A stretch of 40,446 nt of DNA, from the NCBI RefSeq assembly GCF_947489355.1, contig NZ_CANLDD010000042.1:1-40446 (forward strand), in the 5' to 3' direction. Origin of the DNA: an uncultured Microbulbifer sp. (GTDB lineage: Bacteria; Pseudomonadota; Gammaproteobacteria; Pseudomonadales; Cellvibrionaceae). Shown piece by piece: positions 26,643 through 40,423 of the stretch. A program made the position numbers and the translations under genes. Every line of letters begins with the position of its first letter. Within the stretch, counting starts at the first letter, position 1. The notes under the pieces were generated by a model that saw nothing but the letters and a program-made list of their open reading frames with translations, had not been told where the DNA came from and ran no database searches.

Positions 26643-26718
26643 GGGGCTATAGCTCAGCTGGGAGAGCGCAACACTGGCAGTGTTGAGGTCAGCGGTTCGA
26701 TCCCGCTTAGCTCCACCA
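26643..26718 (+). tRNA. tRNA-Ala (anticodon GGC)
   Basis: The 76-nt cloverleaf starts GGGGCTA and ends TAGCTCC-A-CCA, with the D arm AGCTCAGCTGGGAGAGC, anticodon stem CAACA/TGTTG around loop CTGGCAG (anticodon GGC), and T arm GCGGTTCGATCCCGC. CCA is encoded. The 3' end borders the accessory region and is probably the attachment site of the integrated element(s). Confidence 0.95.
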
Positions 26719-26848: not shown

Positions 26849-26864
26849 TCTGAAATTTCCCTTT

Positions 26865-27040
26865 TCAAAACTCCCTTCCGATTGCCTGCTCACCCAGGTA
26901 AATGTTGATTTCGTTGTGATCAGAGTGCCGTGCCCAGCCTAATATCCCTGTGTGACCCTCTCGTCGGTGTGAGTTTTCAGTTTAAAGCTGAGTTGGCTGG
27001 CTGCGAGGCTGTCCTAGTGCGCTCAGTTAATAGCGGAGAT
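26865..27040 (-). pseudogene. Relic of a tyrosine integrase gene, 3' end
   Basis: Read leftwards, this stretch matches the end of the intact integrase at 29461-30663. It has HTDERVTQGY, then an in-frame stop where the intact protein has Gln, AGHG, a frameshift, and then SDHNEINIYLGEQAIGREF against DYDEISIYLDEKAIGRGF. Next to it, bases 26979-27035 match an internal piece (TTAAAACTGAGGTGGCTGGC region near 29,875). About 300 bp that encode the catalytic centre are therefore deleted, with GGTG at the junction in both parents. It is the scar of an earlier element inserted at tRNA-Ala. Confidence 0.85.
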
Positions 27041-27325: not shown

Positions 27326-29329
27326 ATGAGTAACGTAAATATAAAAAGAGCCATAGATAATATACGCTCGGGAACTAGCGTTTATACACCGATTGTAGAA
27401 GTCATAGTCAATGCGATTCAAGCGATTGAATCTACTAACATGTGCATGCGCGATGGTCTAGTAGATATTGCCATAAAGCGAGCTCGACAGATCGATCTAG
27501 TTGATTCAATACCAGAAGTAGAGGGATTCGAAGTCGTTGATAATGGTATAGGTTTTACTGATCAAAACCGTGATTCTTTTGATACTCTTTATTCAGCTCA
27601 TAAAATAGCTGAGGGCGGTAAAGGATTTGGTCGCTTCACCTGCTTGAAGTACTTTGAAGATATGGAGGTAGAAAGCTCATTCCAAAAAAATGGAAAATTA
27701 TTTGATAGATCTTTCAAGATGGGAAAAGAGAATGAAATAATTATAAATGAAAAAAAAGAAAAATCGAATAAAAATATTACAGGTAGCAAAATAAAACTTT
27801 TAAAAATTAAAAAGAAAAAATTTCCAGAAAAAAAGATTCAGACTATAGCAAGGATTTTGGTTGAGCGTTTGTTACCATTTTTTGTAAATAAGGATAGAAT
27901 ACCACCAAAAATTGTACTTCGAGAAGAAGATGAATCAGAGGTAATTATACTTAACGAGTATGTAGAAACTCAGAGTCAAATACAGGAAATAAATTCAGCA
28001 AGTAGTAATTTTTGTCTTGAAAGAAATGAGGGGGAAGAGCGTTTTATAGCTAGGGTTTTTAAATTTTATTCGCCTAGGAGTCAAACAAGCAAAGTTAGCT
28101 TAGTGGCTCATAGAAGAGAAGTTACAAGTGTTTCTTTGCATAAGTATATTCCTGAGTTTATTGAAGAATTTTACGATAGAAAAATTACTGGTGAAGAAAT
28201 AGCGGAAAAGAACTTCACGATTAAGGTCTACGTTTTTGGTGAATACTTGGATGAAAACGTATCTCTTGAGCGTGGTGGATTTGAATTCCAAAAAGAAAAT
28301 GACGTAATTTATGGGATTTCTCAGGTTGAAATTGAAAAGAATGCGGCAGAATTAGCCAGATCTGCTGTGAATTCAGAGGTTCAGGAGAGATATGAGAAAA
28401 AGAAAAAGAAAGTAAAGGACTATGTTAATGAACAAGCTCCTTGGCATAAGGGGATGTTAAGCGAAATCGACTTAACTGATATGCCATACAATGCAACTAA
28501 CGAACAAATAGAAACTAAACTGCAAAAGAAAAAATACGAGCAAGAGATTCAAGTTAGGGGCGAAGTAAGTAGGATTTTGGGGGAAGGTAATCTTGAAGAT
28601 CTTAAAGAAAATGCTTCGGATATAGTAAGAAGAATTTCTGGATCTACCAAAAATGATCTTGCGCATTATATCGCTCTTAGACGTAGTGTTATTGATTTGT
28701 TTGATAGAAGTCTGCAGGTTGAAGGTGATGGTAGCTACTCTTCAGAAGGAGTAGTCCACGATATTATTTTCCCAAGAAGGGGTGACTCAGATACAACAGC
28801 ATTTGAGGAGCACAACCTTTGGCTGATTGATGAAAGGTTAAATTTTACTGAGTACCTTTCTTCAGATTTACCACTGAAAGGAAGGCAGGATAGACCAGAT
28901 CTTCTTGCGTATGATTCAAGAGTCGTTTTCCGTGGTGAAAACGAAGCTACAAATCCAGTCACAATATTTGAGTTCAAAAAGCCCCAGCGTGATGATTTTG
29001 TAAATCCGTCTTCTAATGAGGACCCCGTTCAACAAGTAGTAAGATATGTAAGACGACTCCGTTCCGGTGATTTCAAAACCCCTCAGGGTAGAGAAATTCT
29101 AATTTCTGAGAATACTCCATTCTATGGGTTCGTTGTTTGTGATTTAGCAAAAAAAGTGAGATCTTGGCTAGAGGAAGAGAAAGATTTTAAACCGATGCCA
29201 GATAGATTGGGTTACTTTCAGAGGCATGAAAACTTAAATTTGTATATTGAGGTTATCGGCTGGGATAAGGTTTTAAAAGACGCGTCAATGAGAAGTCGAA
29301 TATTTTTTCATAAACTCGGGATCGTTTAA
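27326..29329 (+). CDS. GHKL-type ATPase with C-terminal PD-(D/E)XK-like nuclease domain
   Basis: This 667-residue protein is visibly AT-rich compared with the housekeeping genes. The N-terminal GHKL ATP-binding fold has the N box (E25-VIV-N29-AIQAIE), G1 box (VV-D72-N-G74-I-G76-F) and G2 lid (GG-K-G-FGRF, 97-104). A Lys-rich, coiled-coil-like middle (about 370-460) leads to a C-terminal region with D525 (RPDLL) and E549-F-K551 (TIFEFKKP), the spacing of a PD-(D/E)XK nuclease. An ATP-gated nuclease acting on foreign DNA is plausible; this is inference. It sits alone between two integrase genes, a typical defence-gene position. I do not recognise a named system with this architecture. Confidence 0.75.
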   Translation: MSNVNIKRAIDNIRSGTSVYTPIVEVIVNAIQAIESTNMCMRDGLVDIAIKRARQIDLVDSIPEVEGFEVVDNGIGFTDQNRDSFDTLYSAHKIAEGGKGFGRFTCLKYFEDMEVESSFQKNGKLFDRSFKMGKENEIIINEKKEKSNKNITGSKIKLLKIKKKKFPEKKIQTIARILVERLLPFFVNKDRIPPKIVLREEDESEVIILNEYVETQSQIQEINSASSNFCLERNEGEERFIARVFKFYSPRSQTSKVSLVAHRREVTSVSLHKYIPEFIEEFYDRKITGEEIAEKNFTIKVYVFGEYLDENVSLERGGFEFQKENDVIYGISQVEIEKNAAELARSAVNSEVQERYEKKKKKVKDYVNEQAPWHKGMLSEIDLTDMPYNATNEQIETKLQKKKYEQEIQVRGEVSRILGEGNLEDLKENASDIVRRISGSTKNDLAHYIALRRSVIDLFDRSLQVEGDGSYSSEGVVHDIIFPRRGDSDTTAFEEHNLWLIDERLNFTEYLSSDLPLKGRQDRPDLLAYDSRVVFRGENEATNPVTIFEFKKPQRDDFVNPSSNEDPVQQVVRYVRRLRSGDFKTPQGREILISENTPFYGFVVCDLAKKVRSWLEEEKDFKPMPDRLGYFQRHENLNLYIEVIGWDKVLKDASMRSRIFFHKLGIV

Positions 29330-30934: not shown

Positions 30935-32054
30935 TGAATAGCCCTCCCTGGCTCACCAAGGCAAAGCCCTTGCTGTTGCGTGTTATTTCTCCCGACTCTT
31001 GCAGGGCGTCGAAAACAGGTTTAACAGCTGGGTAACCACCACGAATGCGCCTACTGATGTTGCGTAACACGGGCCGGGTGCCGAACTCTCCGGCGCAAAT
31101 TTGGTTGGCCAGTTCAATCTGATCCTGGCTGAGGTTAGCGTTTACAAACCGTTTAGCTGGCGTTGAGAGCCGTTTAGAAACCGTTGAAAACTGTTTAGAA
31201 AGCGTTGAGGAATCTTGCTCTCCCGTGGGCAACCGTTTAGCTACTGTTGGCAGCTGTTTAGCGTCATTTAGCAACTGTTTAGGCTCAGTTGGCGACCGTT
31301 TAGCGTCCGTTGAAAACCGTTTAGAATCCGTTGAAAACTGTTTAGTTGGCGTTGAAAACCGTTTAAACGGTTGAGCTGACCGTTTACAAACCGTTGAGGC
31401 AGCGTTAAACGCTAGTAACGCCACCAGCCCTACCACATCAGTGATGATTGCCAGGGCGAGGAATCCGACGTGCTGTAGTCGCACGGGATCCACATTGAGC
31501 GTGCTGGCCAGGCTGCTAAATGCACCGTGTGCGCTGGCGCCTGGTTGCGCTGTGGAAAGGCTTTCGATCAACTGGCTGCGCTGGGCTTCCAGGGCATGCA
31601 ATTTGGGGGTGGTATCAATAGCGCGCTGGCGGTAGCCGTTGGCGGCATCTGTGGCGATCAGACTGTTTAGGCTGTTGATCTGTTCTTTAATGCTGTTGAG
31701 CTGCTGTTCAAGCGCTTGGTATTCCAGGCTGCCCTGGGTACTGCGCTGCTGCTGTTCTTCACTGTGTGTGGCGAGGAATCCAACGGTGGCGACAATGCTG
31801 ATCACCACCAGTAATGGCCAGAGCGCGAGGAGGACATGGCCGCTGAGCTGTCCCTGGGAGCGCAGCCAGAGGCCCAGAGGCGCAAAACTAAACTTACACA
31901 GCTCCAGAGCAACGGCGGTAAGGCCGGCCACTACCTGGCTGCCGGTAGTGCTGGGTATAGCGATCCACAGCTGCACAGTAAAGGCGAGGCTGGTGCCGCA
32001 GAAAATGAGTGCGGCGATGCCGGTGAGGGATTGCCAGAGTCTCACGCCGCACAT
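30927..32054 (-). CDS. Membrane protein with heptapeptide repeat tract and winged-helix-like C-terminus
   Basis: This 375-residue protein has three N-terminal membrane segments (SLTGIAALIFCGTSLAFTV, AGLTAVALELCKFSFAPLGL, LLALWPLLVVISIVATVGFL). A Gln/Leu-rich coiled coil (about 105-165) and a fourth membrane segment (VGFLALAIITDVVGLVALLAF) follow, then twelve 7-residue units of the form K-R/Q-F/L-S/P-T-x-x encoded by the 21-bp DNA repeat at 31147-31398. The C-terminus (QIELANQICAGEFGTRPVL...FDALQESGEITR) looks like a small helix-turn-helix domain. AGGAGG directly precedes the start. I do not recognise a function; the phage-type neighbours suggest a role in the mobile element. Confidence 0.65.
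   Translation of the reverse strand: MCGVRLWQSLTGIAALIFCGTSLAFTVQLWIAIPSTTGSQVVAGLTAVALELCKFSFAPLGLWLRSQGQLSGHVLLALWPLLVVISIVATVGFLATHSEEQQQRSTQGSLEYQALEQQLNSIKEQINSLNSLIATDAANGYRQRAIDTTPKLHALEAQRSQLIESLSTAQPGASAHGAFSSLASTLNVDPVRLQHVGFLALAIITDVVGLVALLAFNAASTVCKRSAQPFKRFSTPTKQFSTDSKRFSTDAKRSPTEPKQLLNDAKQLPTVAKRLPTGEQDSSTLSKQFSTVSKRLSTPAKRFVNANLSQDQIELANQICAGEFGTRPVLRNISRRIRGGYPAVKPVFDALQESGEITRNSKGFALVSQGGLFNG
31147..31398. repeat. Twelve tandem 21-bp repeats (iteron-like)
   Basis: The plus-strand unit is close to AACCGTTTAGNNNCCGTTGA plus one base. Twelve units fit exactly into 252 bp, one of them (near 31,210-31,230) strongly degenerate. The repeat stays in frame inside the membrane-protein gene and encodes the K-R-F-S-T-x-x heptads. 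Directly repeated 20-22-bp units are also the form of plasmid and phage replication iterons, so the tract may be both coding and a protein-binding array. Confidence 0.85.
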
Positions 32055-36991: not shown

Positions 36992-37016
36992 AAGCCCGCC
37001 CCGTGCGGGCTTTTTT
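36992..37016 (+). terminator. Rho-independent terminator
   Basis: GCCCGC-cccgt-GCGGGC followed by TTTTTT, about 130 bp after the preceding cargo gene and 16 bp before the M15 peptidase gene. Confidence 0.85.
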
Positions 37017-37031
37017 GTATCTGGTAATCCC

Positions 37032-37415
37032 ATGTTTGAAAACGCCTACTTCACGAAAGCGGAGCTGTCCTGCCGTTGTTGCGGGAAACTCCACTTCTCG
37101 GATGGCACGTTGCGCCGATTGATCAGGGTGAGGGGAAGGTTTGCCAAGCCGATGGTGATCACCTCCGGTTATCGCTGCCGGGACCACTGCGCCAGGATCG
37201 GTTCCACCATGACACACACTACCGGGCAGGCTGTGGATGTATCAGTTTCTGGTGGGCGTGCCTATGAGCTGCTGGGGATCGCGCTGGAGGAAGGGTTCAC
37301 TGGTATTGGAGTAAAGCAGCATGGTCCACACAAGGGCAGATTCCTGCACCTGGACGATCTTGGAGCTATTCCGGGCAAGCGTGACGGCCCCACAGTCTGG
37401 AGCTACCCAAGGTAG
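37032..37415 (+). CDS. M15-family peptidase, phage endolysin-like
   Basis: This 127-residue zinc peptidase of the M15_3 type cleaves peptidoglycan cross-links in phage lysis. The zinc ligands appear as H62 and D69 in HTTGQAVDVSV and H106 in RFLHLDD; SGYRCRDHC precedes them. There is no signal peptide, so export would need a holin, which is not seen next to it. It is the only lysis or late gene left downstream of the Q-like regulator. A terminator lies just upstream, so its own expression would need antitermination or another promoter. Confidence 0.82.
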   Translation: MFENAYFTKAELSCRCCGKLHFSDGTLRRLIRVRGRFAKPMVITSGYRCRDHCARIGSTMTHTTGQAVDVSVSGGRAYELLGIALEEGFTGIGVKQHGPHKGRFLHLDDLGAIPGKRDGPTVWSYPR

Positions 37416-39941: not shown

Positions 39942-40004
39942 TCACGCCATCATAAACGACTGCCCACGCGTTGCTTCCGGCAGCCGTTTATGATGGCGTT
40001 AAGC
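39942..40004 (+). repeat. attC-like recombination site 3
   Basis: CGCCATCATAAACG (39945-39958) and its exact complement CGTTTATGATGGCG (39985-39998) form a 14-bp stem, with TGCC/GGCA inside. The site closes with GTTAAGC, which fits the integron core consensus GTTRRRY fully. It lies 40 bp after the SEC-C gene and 15 bp before the next gene. Confidence 0.65.
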
Positions 40005-40018
40005 CTTCGAGGGAAGAC

Positions 40019-40423
40019 ATGGATATACGAAATATATTTGAAGCGATAAGTTTAGAATTGTCGGCAAAATTCAAAAAAACGACACAAATAAAACACAATG
40101 GCGGAAAGGGAGATAACAGAGAGGATGCTTTTGTAGACTTTCTTCAAGAATACTTGCCAAATAAATATGGCATAGGTCTGGGTGAGGTAATCTCACCTGA
40201 AAATGAAATTAGTGGTGAACTAGATATTGTGATCTTTGATAAAGATCATTGCCCTCTGTTTTTAAAATCTGATTCTCACTCCCTATATCCAAGGGAAAGC
40301 GTTTTTGGTGCTATTAGCATGAAGTCGCATCTTGATAGCGAGGAGCTGAAGGACGCATATAAGAATATTTCTAGTCCAAAAGGGAGACCCCCCGGCTTTG
40401 CCGGGGAGGCACGCATAGTTTGA
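40019..40423 (+). CDS. DUF6602-like (PD-(D/E)XK-related) protein, truncated
   Basis: This 134-residue frame (MDIRNIFEAISLELSAKFKK) has IKHNGGKGDNREDAFVDFLQ, LPNKYGIGLGEVISPENEIS, GELDIVIFDKDHCPLF and ESVFGAISMKSHLDSEELKD, matching the start of DUF6602, a nuclease-fold family. Where such proteins have I-E-V-K, this one has I-S-M-K, so the catalytic Glu seems lost. After about residue 120 (KNISSPKGRPPGFAGEARIV) the reading frame enters a GC-rich hairpin sequence and stops, well short of family length. An insertion at about 40,380 has probably cut it. It is the first gene after attC-like site 3. Confidence 0.6.
   Translation: MDIRNIFEAISLELSAKFKKTTQIKHNGGKGDNREDAFVDFLQEYLPNKYGIGLGEVISPENEISGELDIVIFDKDHCPLFLKSDSHSLYPRESVFGAISMKSHLDSEELKDAYKNISSPKGRPPGFAGEARIV
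40390..40406. repeat. GC-rich hairpin at window end
   Basis: CCCCGGC-ttt-GCCGGGG lies where the DUF6602-like frame loses its family resemblance. It may be the terminal structure of an insertion sequence or a dispersed palindromic repeat extending past the window. Too little sequence remains to assign it. Confidence 0.5.

Follow-up and report, generated by a model that had tools for sequence, protein, structure and literature searches.

A predicted anti-phage nuclease of the paraMORC3 family carried at a tRNA-Ala integration site in Microbulbifer

Results

Features of the locus

We analyzed a 40,446-nucleotide stretch of DNA from an uncultured Microbulbifer sp. (contig NZ_CANLDD010000042.1, positions 1 to 40,446; hereafter, the window, meaning the stretch at its full length) and examined one of its genes, located at 27326–29329, whose product joins a GHKL ATPase to a PD-(D/E)XK nuclease. 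The open reading frame (ORF) lies where the initial annotation, made from the sequence alone, had placed it, encodes 667 amino acids and begins with ATG. From left to right, a tRNA-Ala gene is followed by an integrase remnant, the GHKL-nuclease gene and, on the opposite strand, an intact integrase gene (Table 1). The remnant contains stop codons, and its two blocks match parts of the intact integrase. The gene had been described as lying between two integrase genes; the right-hand one is intact, but the copy on the tRNA side is a decayed remnant.

Table 1. Features at and around the GHKL-nuclease gene in the window
Feature	Coordinates	Strand	Evidence
tRNA-Ala(GGC), integration site	26643..26718	+	ARAGORN; tRNA-3'-end repeats 8–9 kb downstream in three congeners
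Decayed integrase remnant, internally deleted	~26864..27023	-	77% and 82% nucleotide identity, two blocks
Coding sequence, 667 amino acids, paraMORC3-type GHKL ATPase + Shedu-type PD-(D/E)XK nuclease (predicted)	27326..29329	+	ORF, family, folds
GHKL ATPase domain, residues ~1–160	27326..27805	+	
GHKL motif with E25 and N29	27398..27412	+	N29 272/272 rows; E25 269/272
GHKL motif DNGIG, residues 72–76	27539..27553	+	D72, G74, G76 272/272
GHKL motif GGKGFGRF, residues 97–104	27614..27637	+	G97, G100, G102 272/272
Transducer-like (S5-fold) middle domain, residues ~160–385	27803..28480	+	VIA-align fold matches
Shedu-type PD-(D/E)XK nuclease domain (predicted), residues ~448–661	28667..29308	+	Structural matches and profile match
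E474, first acid of the E-D-ExK set	28745..28747	+	97/97 rows of alignment A1
D525, nuclease metal-site acid (predicted)	28898..28900	+	272/272
E549-F-K551, ExK half of the nuclease site (predicted)	28970..28978	+	E549, K551 272/272
Tyrosine integrase, 400 amino acids	29461..30663	-	Pfam PF00589, E 3.5e-9

Domain architecture and conservation

We compared models of the protein with solved structures using VIA-align. The N-terminal half is a GHKL and transducer module of the MORC/MutL kind with a complete ATP site, and its fold resembles the modules of MORC2/MORC3, SMCHD1, MutL, Topo VI-B and Hsp90; matches of the full-length model to MORC, SMCHD1 and MutL covered residues 1–357, and two of them reached residue 385. 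For the C-terminal PD-(D/E)XK domain, the closest solved folds were Shedu nucleases, which accounted for all of the best four matches (8ti9, 8ti8, 8ps5 and 8ps4). The proposed architecture, including a nuclease fold around D525, E549 and K551, was supported by the folds and by the invariance of the predicted catalytic residues.

Conservation was assessed in an alignment of 272 rows, which comprised 242 proteins (the window protein included) and 30 locus translations and contained 269 distinct sequences; a second alignment, A1, comprised 97 rows chosen for <90% mutual identity. The motifs listed in the initial annotation (E25/N29, D72-G74-G76, G97-G102, D525 and E549-F-K551) were present and nearly invariant in the 272 rows, although, because these rows were collected by similarity, the invariance describes the family found and is no independent test. 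The E25 column contained 269 glutamates, two aspartates and one gap. E474, an acid additional to the motifs named earlier, completes an E-D-ExK set with D525, E549 and K551. Moreover, Q570 was identical in all rows, and H478 in 271 rows with one gap. Both predicted active sites are conserved.

We also compared the gene with its copy in a viral contig (L037), and obtained a ratio of nonsynonymous to synonymous substitution rates (dN/dS) of 0.12 over 665 codons, which indicates purifying selection. Comparisons with loci L002 and L003 gave no ratio, as both were saturated at synonymous sites. The gene had been noted as AT-rich, and its GC content was indeed 0.36–0.37 in two kilobase steps, compared with 0.51–0.55 at 25–27 and 30–32 kb; however, the GC content drops again to 0.38–0.41 at 35–37 kb, and low GC is therefore not peculiar to this gene.

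Detection by sequence profiles

Scans with Pfam, PADLOC and NCBIfam were performed, and none of the three libraries named the window protein; the PADLOC search that the initial annotation had recommended thus returned nothing for it. An ArsC-family match in NCBIfam (18 bits against a cut-off of 121) and matches to arsenate reductase and OxyR in the PDB (E 0.03 or worse) were discarded as chance. No solved structure was matched by the family profile. In a profile comparison with 124 SduA sequences, the probability of a match to the SduA C-terminus was 77% for the C-terminal domain and 54% for the full-length profile, and the corresponding values against full-length SduA were 48% and 20%. When four SduA sequences were used, the probability was 6% for the C-terminal domain and 3% for the full-length profile. 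In full-length fold searches, the rows were taken up by the GHKL half. As modeled, the C-terminal nuclease has the SduA/DUF4263 fold.

Family and distribution

Among 7999 scored candidates from a search of 5.8 billion proteins, 1891 were relatives at E ≤ 1e-3, and the best 120 of these 1891 spanned 99–100% of the query. Their hosts include Zobellella, Microbulbifer, Marinobacter, Aeromonas, Pseudomonas, Endozoicomonas and Nitrosomonas. Members of the clade containing the window protein were at least 50% identical to one another and ~30% identical to a second clade, which includes Vibrio, Klebsiella, Enterobacter and Aeromonas proteins; judging from these identities, at least two such clades exist in the GHKL-Shedu family.

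Of 58 genomes in the relatives set, three carry the gene; one of these is the genome that contains the window, and the copies in the remaining two are 30–34% identical. Across 369 genomes of the class, full-length matches occurred in two, a count that likewise takes in the genome of the window, and the remaining eight matches were short ones to the N-terminal GHKL part. Relatives were carried by 56 of 72,556 plasmids, 25 of which had one place spanning at least 80%, and by 1 of 50,697 phage records. The distribution is sporadic and mobile. A distant relative in phage vB_RanS_PJN03 (L020:2485–4509; 24% identity over 97% of the query) adjoins an integrase and is annotated as N-acetylmuramoyl-L-alanine amidase, a name that is probably wrong.

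Integration at the tRNA-Ala gene

L037 carries a 26-base sequence that matches the tRNA 3' end in the window with 0 mismatches; after it come a copy of the gene (81% identical), a gene of 207 amino acids and an integrase (84% identical). The contig of a congener (L053) is similarly arranged, with the same tRNA flank as in the window and an integrase that is also 84% identical, and a different gene occupies the slot between them; this gene of 426 amino acids (L053:421–1701) has no Pfam match. Furthermore, a second partial tRNA 3' end was found 8–9 kb away on the same contig in 3 of 40 genus genomes (G013, G018 and G032) queried with the flank of the tRNA. We read six congener regions, of which these three were picked on purpose for the second tRNA copy, and verified the repeated 26-base sequence in the three picked regions and not in the other three. 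On the basis of these repeats and of the arrangements in L037 and L053, the tRNA-Ala gene is an integration hotspot, and the GHKL-nuclease gene is cargo of an element, lying between the attachment site and the integrase.

The initial annotation had further regarded the site as a hotspot where defence genes collect. We scanned 28 of the 64 hotspot ORFs (≥100 amino acids) of the six regions, mostly those closest to the tRNA, and PADLOC matched one of them (PDC-S52; protein not assigned); the site is therefore shown as an integration hotspot only.

Other features of the window lie to the right of the gene. The stretch at 36995–37406, which carries a Peptidase_M15_3 (endolysin-like) gene, was 69% identical in nucleotide sequence to L037:21108–21519, which suggests that the window element extends beyond 37 kb and is a prophage or what remains of one. 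PADLOC was given 10 proteins encoded to the right of the gene; nine had no match and one (39971–40423) had a NucC-type match. This ORF of 150 amino acids near the contig end, matched by DUF6602 in Pfam and by roughly the N-terminal half of the NucC model, is possibly a second, shortened defence nuclease. At 31148–31397, an array of imperfect 21-base repeats within a minus-strand ORF of 375 amino acids encodes a recurring KRFST-like segment.

Neighbors of the relatives

We annotated 10 of the 56 plasmid loci with flanks of 5 or 8 kb. Restriction-modification (R-M), CBASS-type, SIR2, Abi or toxin-antitoxin genes flanked 7 of the 10 (L010, L011, L012, L013, L016, L018 and L019), as judged by annotation names and without a random-locus baseline; the proposed survey of neighborhoods thus found defence-type genes beside the relatives, but as a count and not as enrichment. 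The PADLOC and Pfam scans of neighbors at six genome-contig loci covered 51 of 79 ORFs (≥90 amino acids) and matched defence families such as type IIG and AbiEi (matches not assigned to proteins).

At one alphaproteobacterial locus (L005:2743–12004), genes for an MmeI-type IIG enzyme, a YhcG-type nuclease, a DEAD helicase, a GIY-YIG protein and the GHKL-nuclease follow in this order. At a second (L006:2977–12004), the MmeI, helicase and GIY-YIG proteins were 69%, 87% and 86% identical to their counterparts, a small gene unrelated to the YhcG-type nuclease occupies the variable slot, and an integrase follows the GHKL-nuclease; the YhcG-type nuclease was therefore ruled out as a common part of this operon. 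On a Vibrio fluvialis plasmid (L010:3556–6950), a canonical SduA (P0122; PF14082, E 1e-25) lies just upstream of the GHKL-nuclease relative and overlaps it by 4 bases within a type I R-M operon, so that two Shedu-type nucleases adjoin.

Discussion

We consider, with a probability of roughly 0.85, that the gene, borne on a prophage or island, makes up an anti-phage system on its own: it would encode a nuclease of the paraMORC3 family that works like VcSduA, a Shedu system of type I-D. VcSduA was reported to protect Escherichia coli from Drexlerviridae and Vibrio cholerae from phage X29; protection was lost with either E27A or K557A, which shows that both active sites are needed, and the growth curves fit direct, non-abortive action (PMC12137116). 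The finding is repeated in a 2025 review (PMC12409362). By analogy with VcSduA, the window protein may also need both sites and protect its host directly and non-abortively. The defence role proposed in the initial annotation is well supported by the folds, the invariant predicted catalytic residues, a mobile, patchy distribution and a published, tested protein of like architecture.

Some searches did not point to Shedu. When the C-terminal model was run in Foldseek, no match reached E < 0.001 and the 50 rows listed contained no Shedu protein. In addition, the Pfam SduA_C model (PF14082) and the PADLOC SduA models, which do recognize ordinary SduA such as P0122 of V. fluvialis, recognized neither the window protein nor a relative from the Vibrio clade (P0121).

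In the most likely mechanism, the protein would dimerize through its GHKL domains, and ATP binding would shut the dimer around DNA. This closure, together with a feature specific to the invader (such as a DNA end, branch or topology), would license the C-terminal nuclease, which would then cut phage DNA.

An explanation that we regard as rather unlikely is that the GHKL-nuclease is an accessory that acts only with an R-M system, linked or elsewhere, for example by DNA looping. The two alphaproteobacterial relatives (53–54% identical) lie downstream of an MmeI-type IIG/DEAD helicase/GIY-YIG operon, those of V. fluvialis and Salinivibrio are the last genes of type I R-M operons, and MORCs and paraMORCs were proposed in 2008 to loop DNA between recognition and cleavage sites in R-M (PMC2292703). 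However, the Pfam and PADLOC scans, each covering 10 proteins encoded to the right of the gene in the window, recognized no R-M gene, and the left neighbor reads, by eye, as a glutamyl-tRNA synthetase-like gene. Moreover, some paraMORC3 proteins stand alone (PMC2292703), and VcSduA protects E. coli by itself (PMC12137116).

It is a comparably tentative idea that the window clade is a distinct GHKL-Shedu subtype, in which the ATP-driven GHKL clamp itself would sense the state of DNA, with a trigger unlike that of VcSduA, so that a single module could defend on its own and also supply restriction operons with a nuclease. The contexts seen in this clade are tRNA-Ala prophage cargo and a position after the MmeI–helicase–GIY-YIG operon in alphaproteobacteria.

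We give still less credence to the possibility that the gene serves the mobile element, by excluding rival prophages or degrading the DNA of competing elements, and not the host at large. It sits in a cargo slot between the tRNA attachment site and the integrase, as it does in the viral contig L037, and the corresponding slot in the congener L053 holds a different gene. Such service is, however, compatible with anti-phage action, in that prophage-borne genes can exclude other phages, and relatives also occur on plasmids and beside R-M operons. The GHKL and transducer fold shared with MutL and Topo VI-B might bring to mind a housekeeping factor of DNA repair akin to MutL or a topoisomerase; this reading was rejected as most improbable because of the sporadic distribution (3/58; 2/369; own genome counted in each), and the mobile context also speaks against it.

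Returning to the anti-phage nuclease, the initial annotation had offered it as a candidate new defence system for whose exact architecture it knew of no named example. This novelty was rejected because the architecture is in print, as paraMORC3 since 2008 and as the anti-phage VcSduA since 2025, and the homologues fall in a system already described. The window protein, which the scanned sequence models miss, adds a new and divergent member to a kind already described. The initial annotation was right to recognize a defence gene in raw sequence; as the system is in print, the gain is modest. Because the three libraries miss the protein and at least two clades are only ~30% identical to each other, the GHKL-Shedu family is broader than present detection models indicate. 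Should the GHKL clamp prove to be the sensor, the family would offer a simple system for asking how a MORC/MutL-like ATPase distinguishes foreign from self DNA.

Comparison with known systems

As described by Iyer, Abhiman and Aravind in 2008, paraMORC3 proteins combine GHKL and S5 domains with a C-terminal nuclease of the restriction endonuclease (RE) fold bearing E-D-ExK, and are laterally mobile (PMC2292703). In the window protein, the ATP-binding motifs of the N-terminal GHKL domain are intact, an S5-fold (transducer) domain follows, and a C-terminal RE-fold nuclease with invariant E474, D525, E549 and K551 is predicted; the family is wide yet sporadic and mobile, with a stand-alone subset. 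No difference from paraMORC3 was found in the features compared, the likeness being to the 2008 description and not to the founding sequences.

Among Shedu proteins, EcSduA binds DNA ends through an N-terminal clamp and nicks at a fixed distance, according to a 2026 review (PMC12904381). VcSduA, reported in 2025, has an N-terminal GHKL and a C-terminal PD-(D/E)xK (DUF4263) domain and is carried on the V. cholerae VSP-II WASA genomic island; it was named Shedu type I-D, a class for which Gu et al. 2025 is cited, and proteins of the same organization were formerly annotated as paraMORC3 (PMC12137116). The window protein shares with VcSduA a single-protein organization with an N-terminal GHKL ATPase, a clamp-like middle and a C-terminal PD-(D/E)xK nuclease, as well as carriage on a genomic island, and has the enzymatic (GHKL) N-terminal regulatory domain of type I-D. 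The essential Glu 27 and Lys 557 of VcSduA probably correspond to E25 and K551, as matched by architecture and position and not by direct alignment. E27 with K556, one residue off K557, occurred in 115 of the 242 protein rows, which form the Vibrio-type clade ~30% identical to the window protein. Of nine V. cholerae-named proteins among the listed matches, seven had E27/K556, two had a shortened frame and none had K557, and VcSduA was not found among the 120 listed matches to the V. fluvialis relative; K557 occurred in one of the 272 rows only, the distant phage relative L020.

The GHKL and transducer module is held in common with MORC2/MORC3, SMCHD1, MutL and Hsp90, which are not known to have a C-terminal PD-(D/E)XK domain of this kind; no GHKL domain is known in EcSduA or Bacillus cereus SduA (8ps4, 8ps5, 8ti8 and 8ti9). 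We therefore file the window protein as a paraMORC3 that works like a type I-D Shedu, its place in Shedu being based on its fold and on the published placing of paraMORC3.
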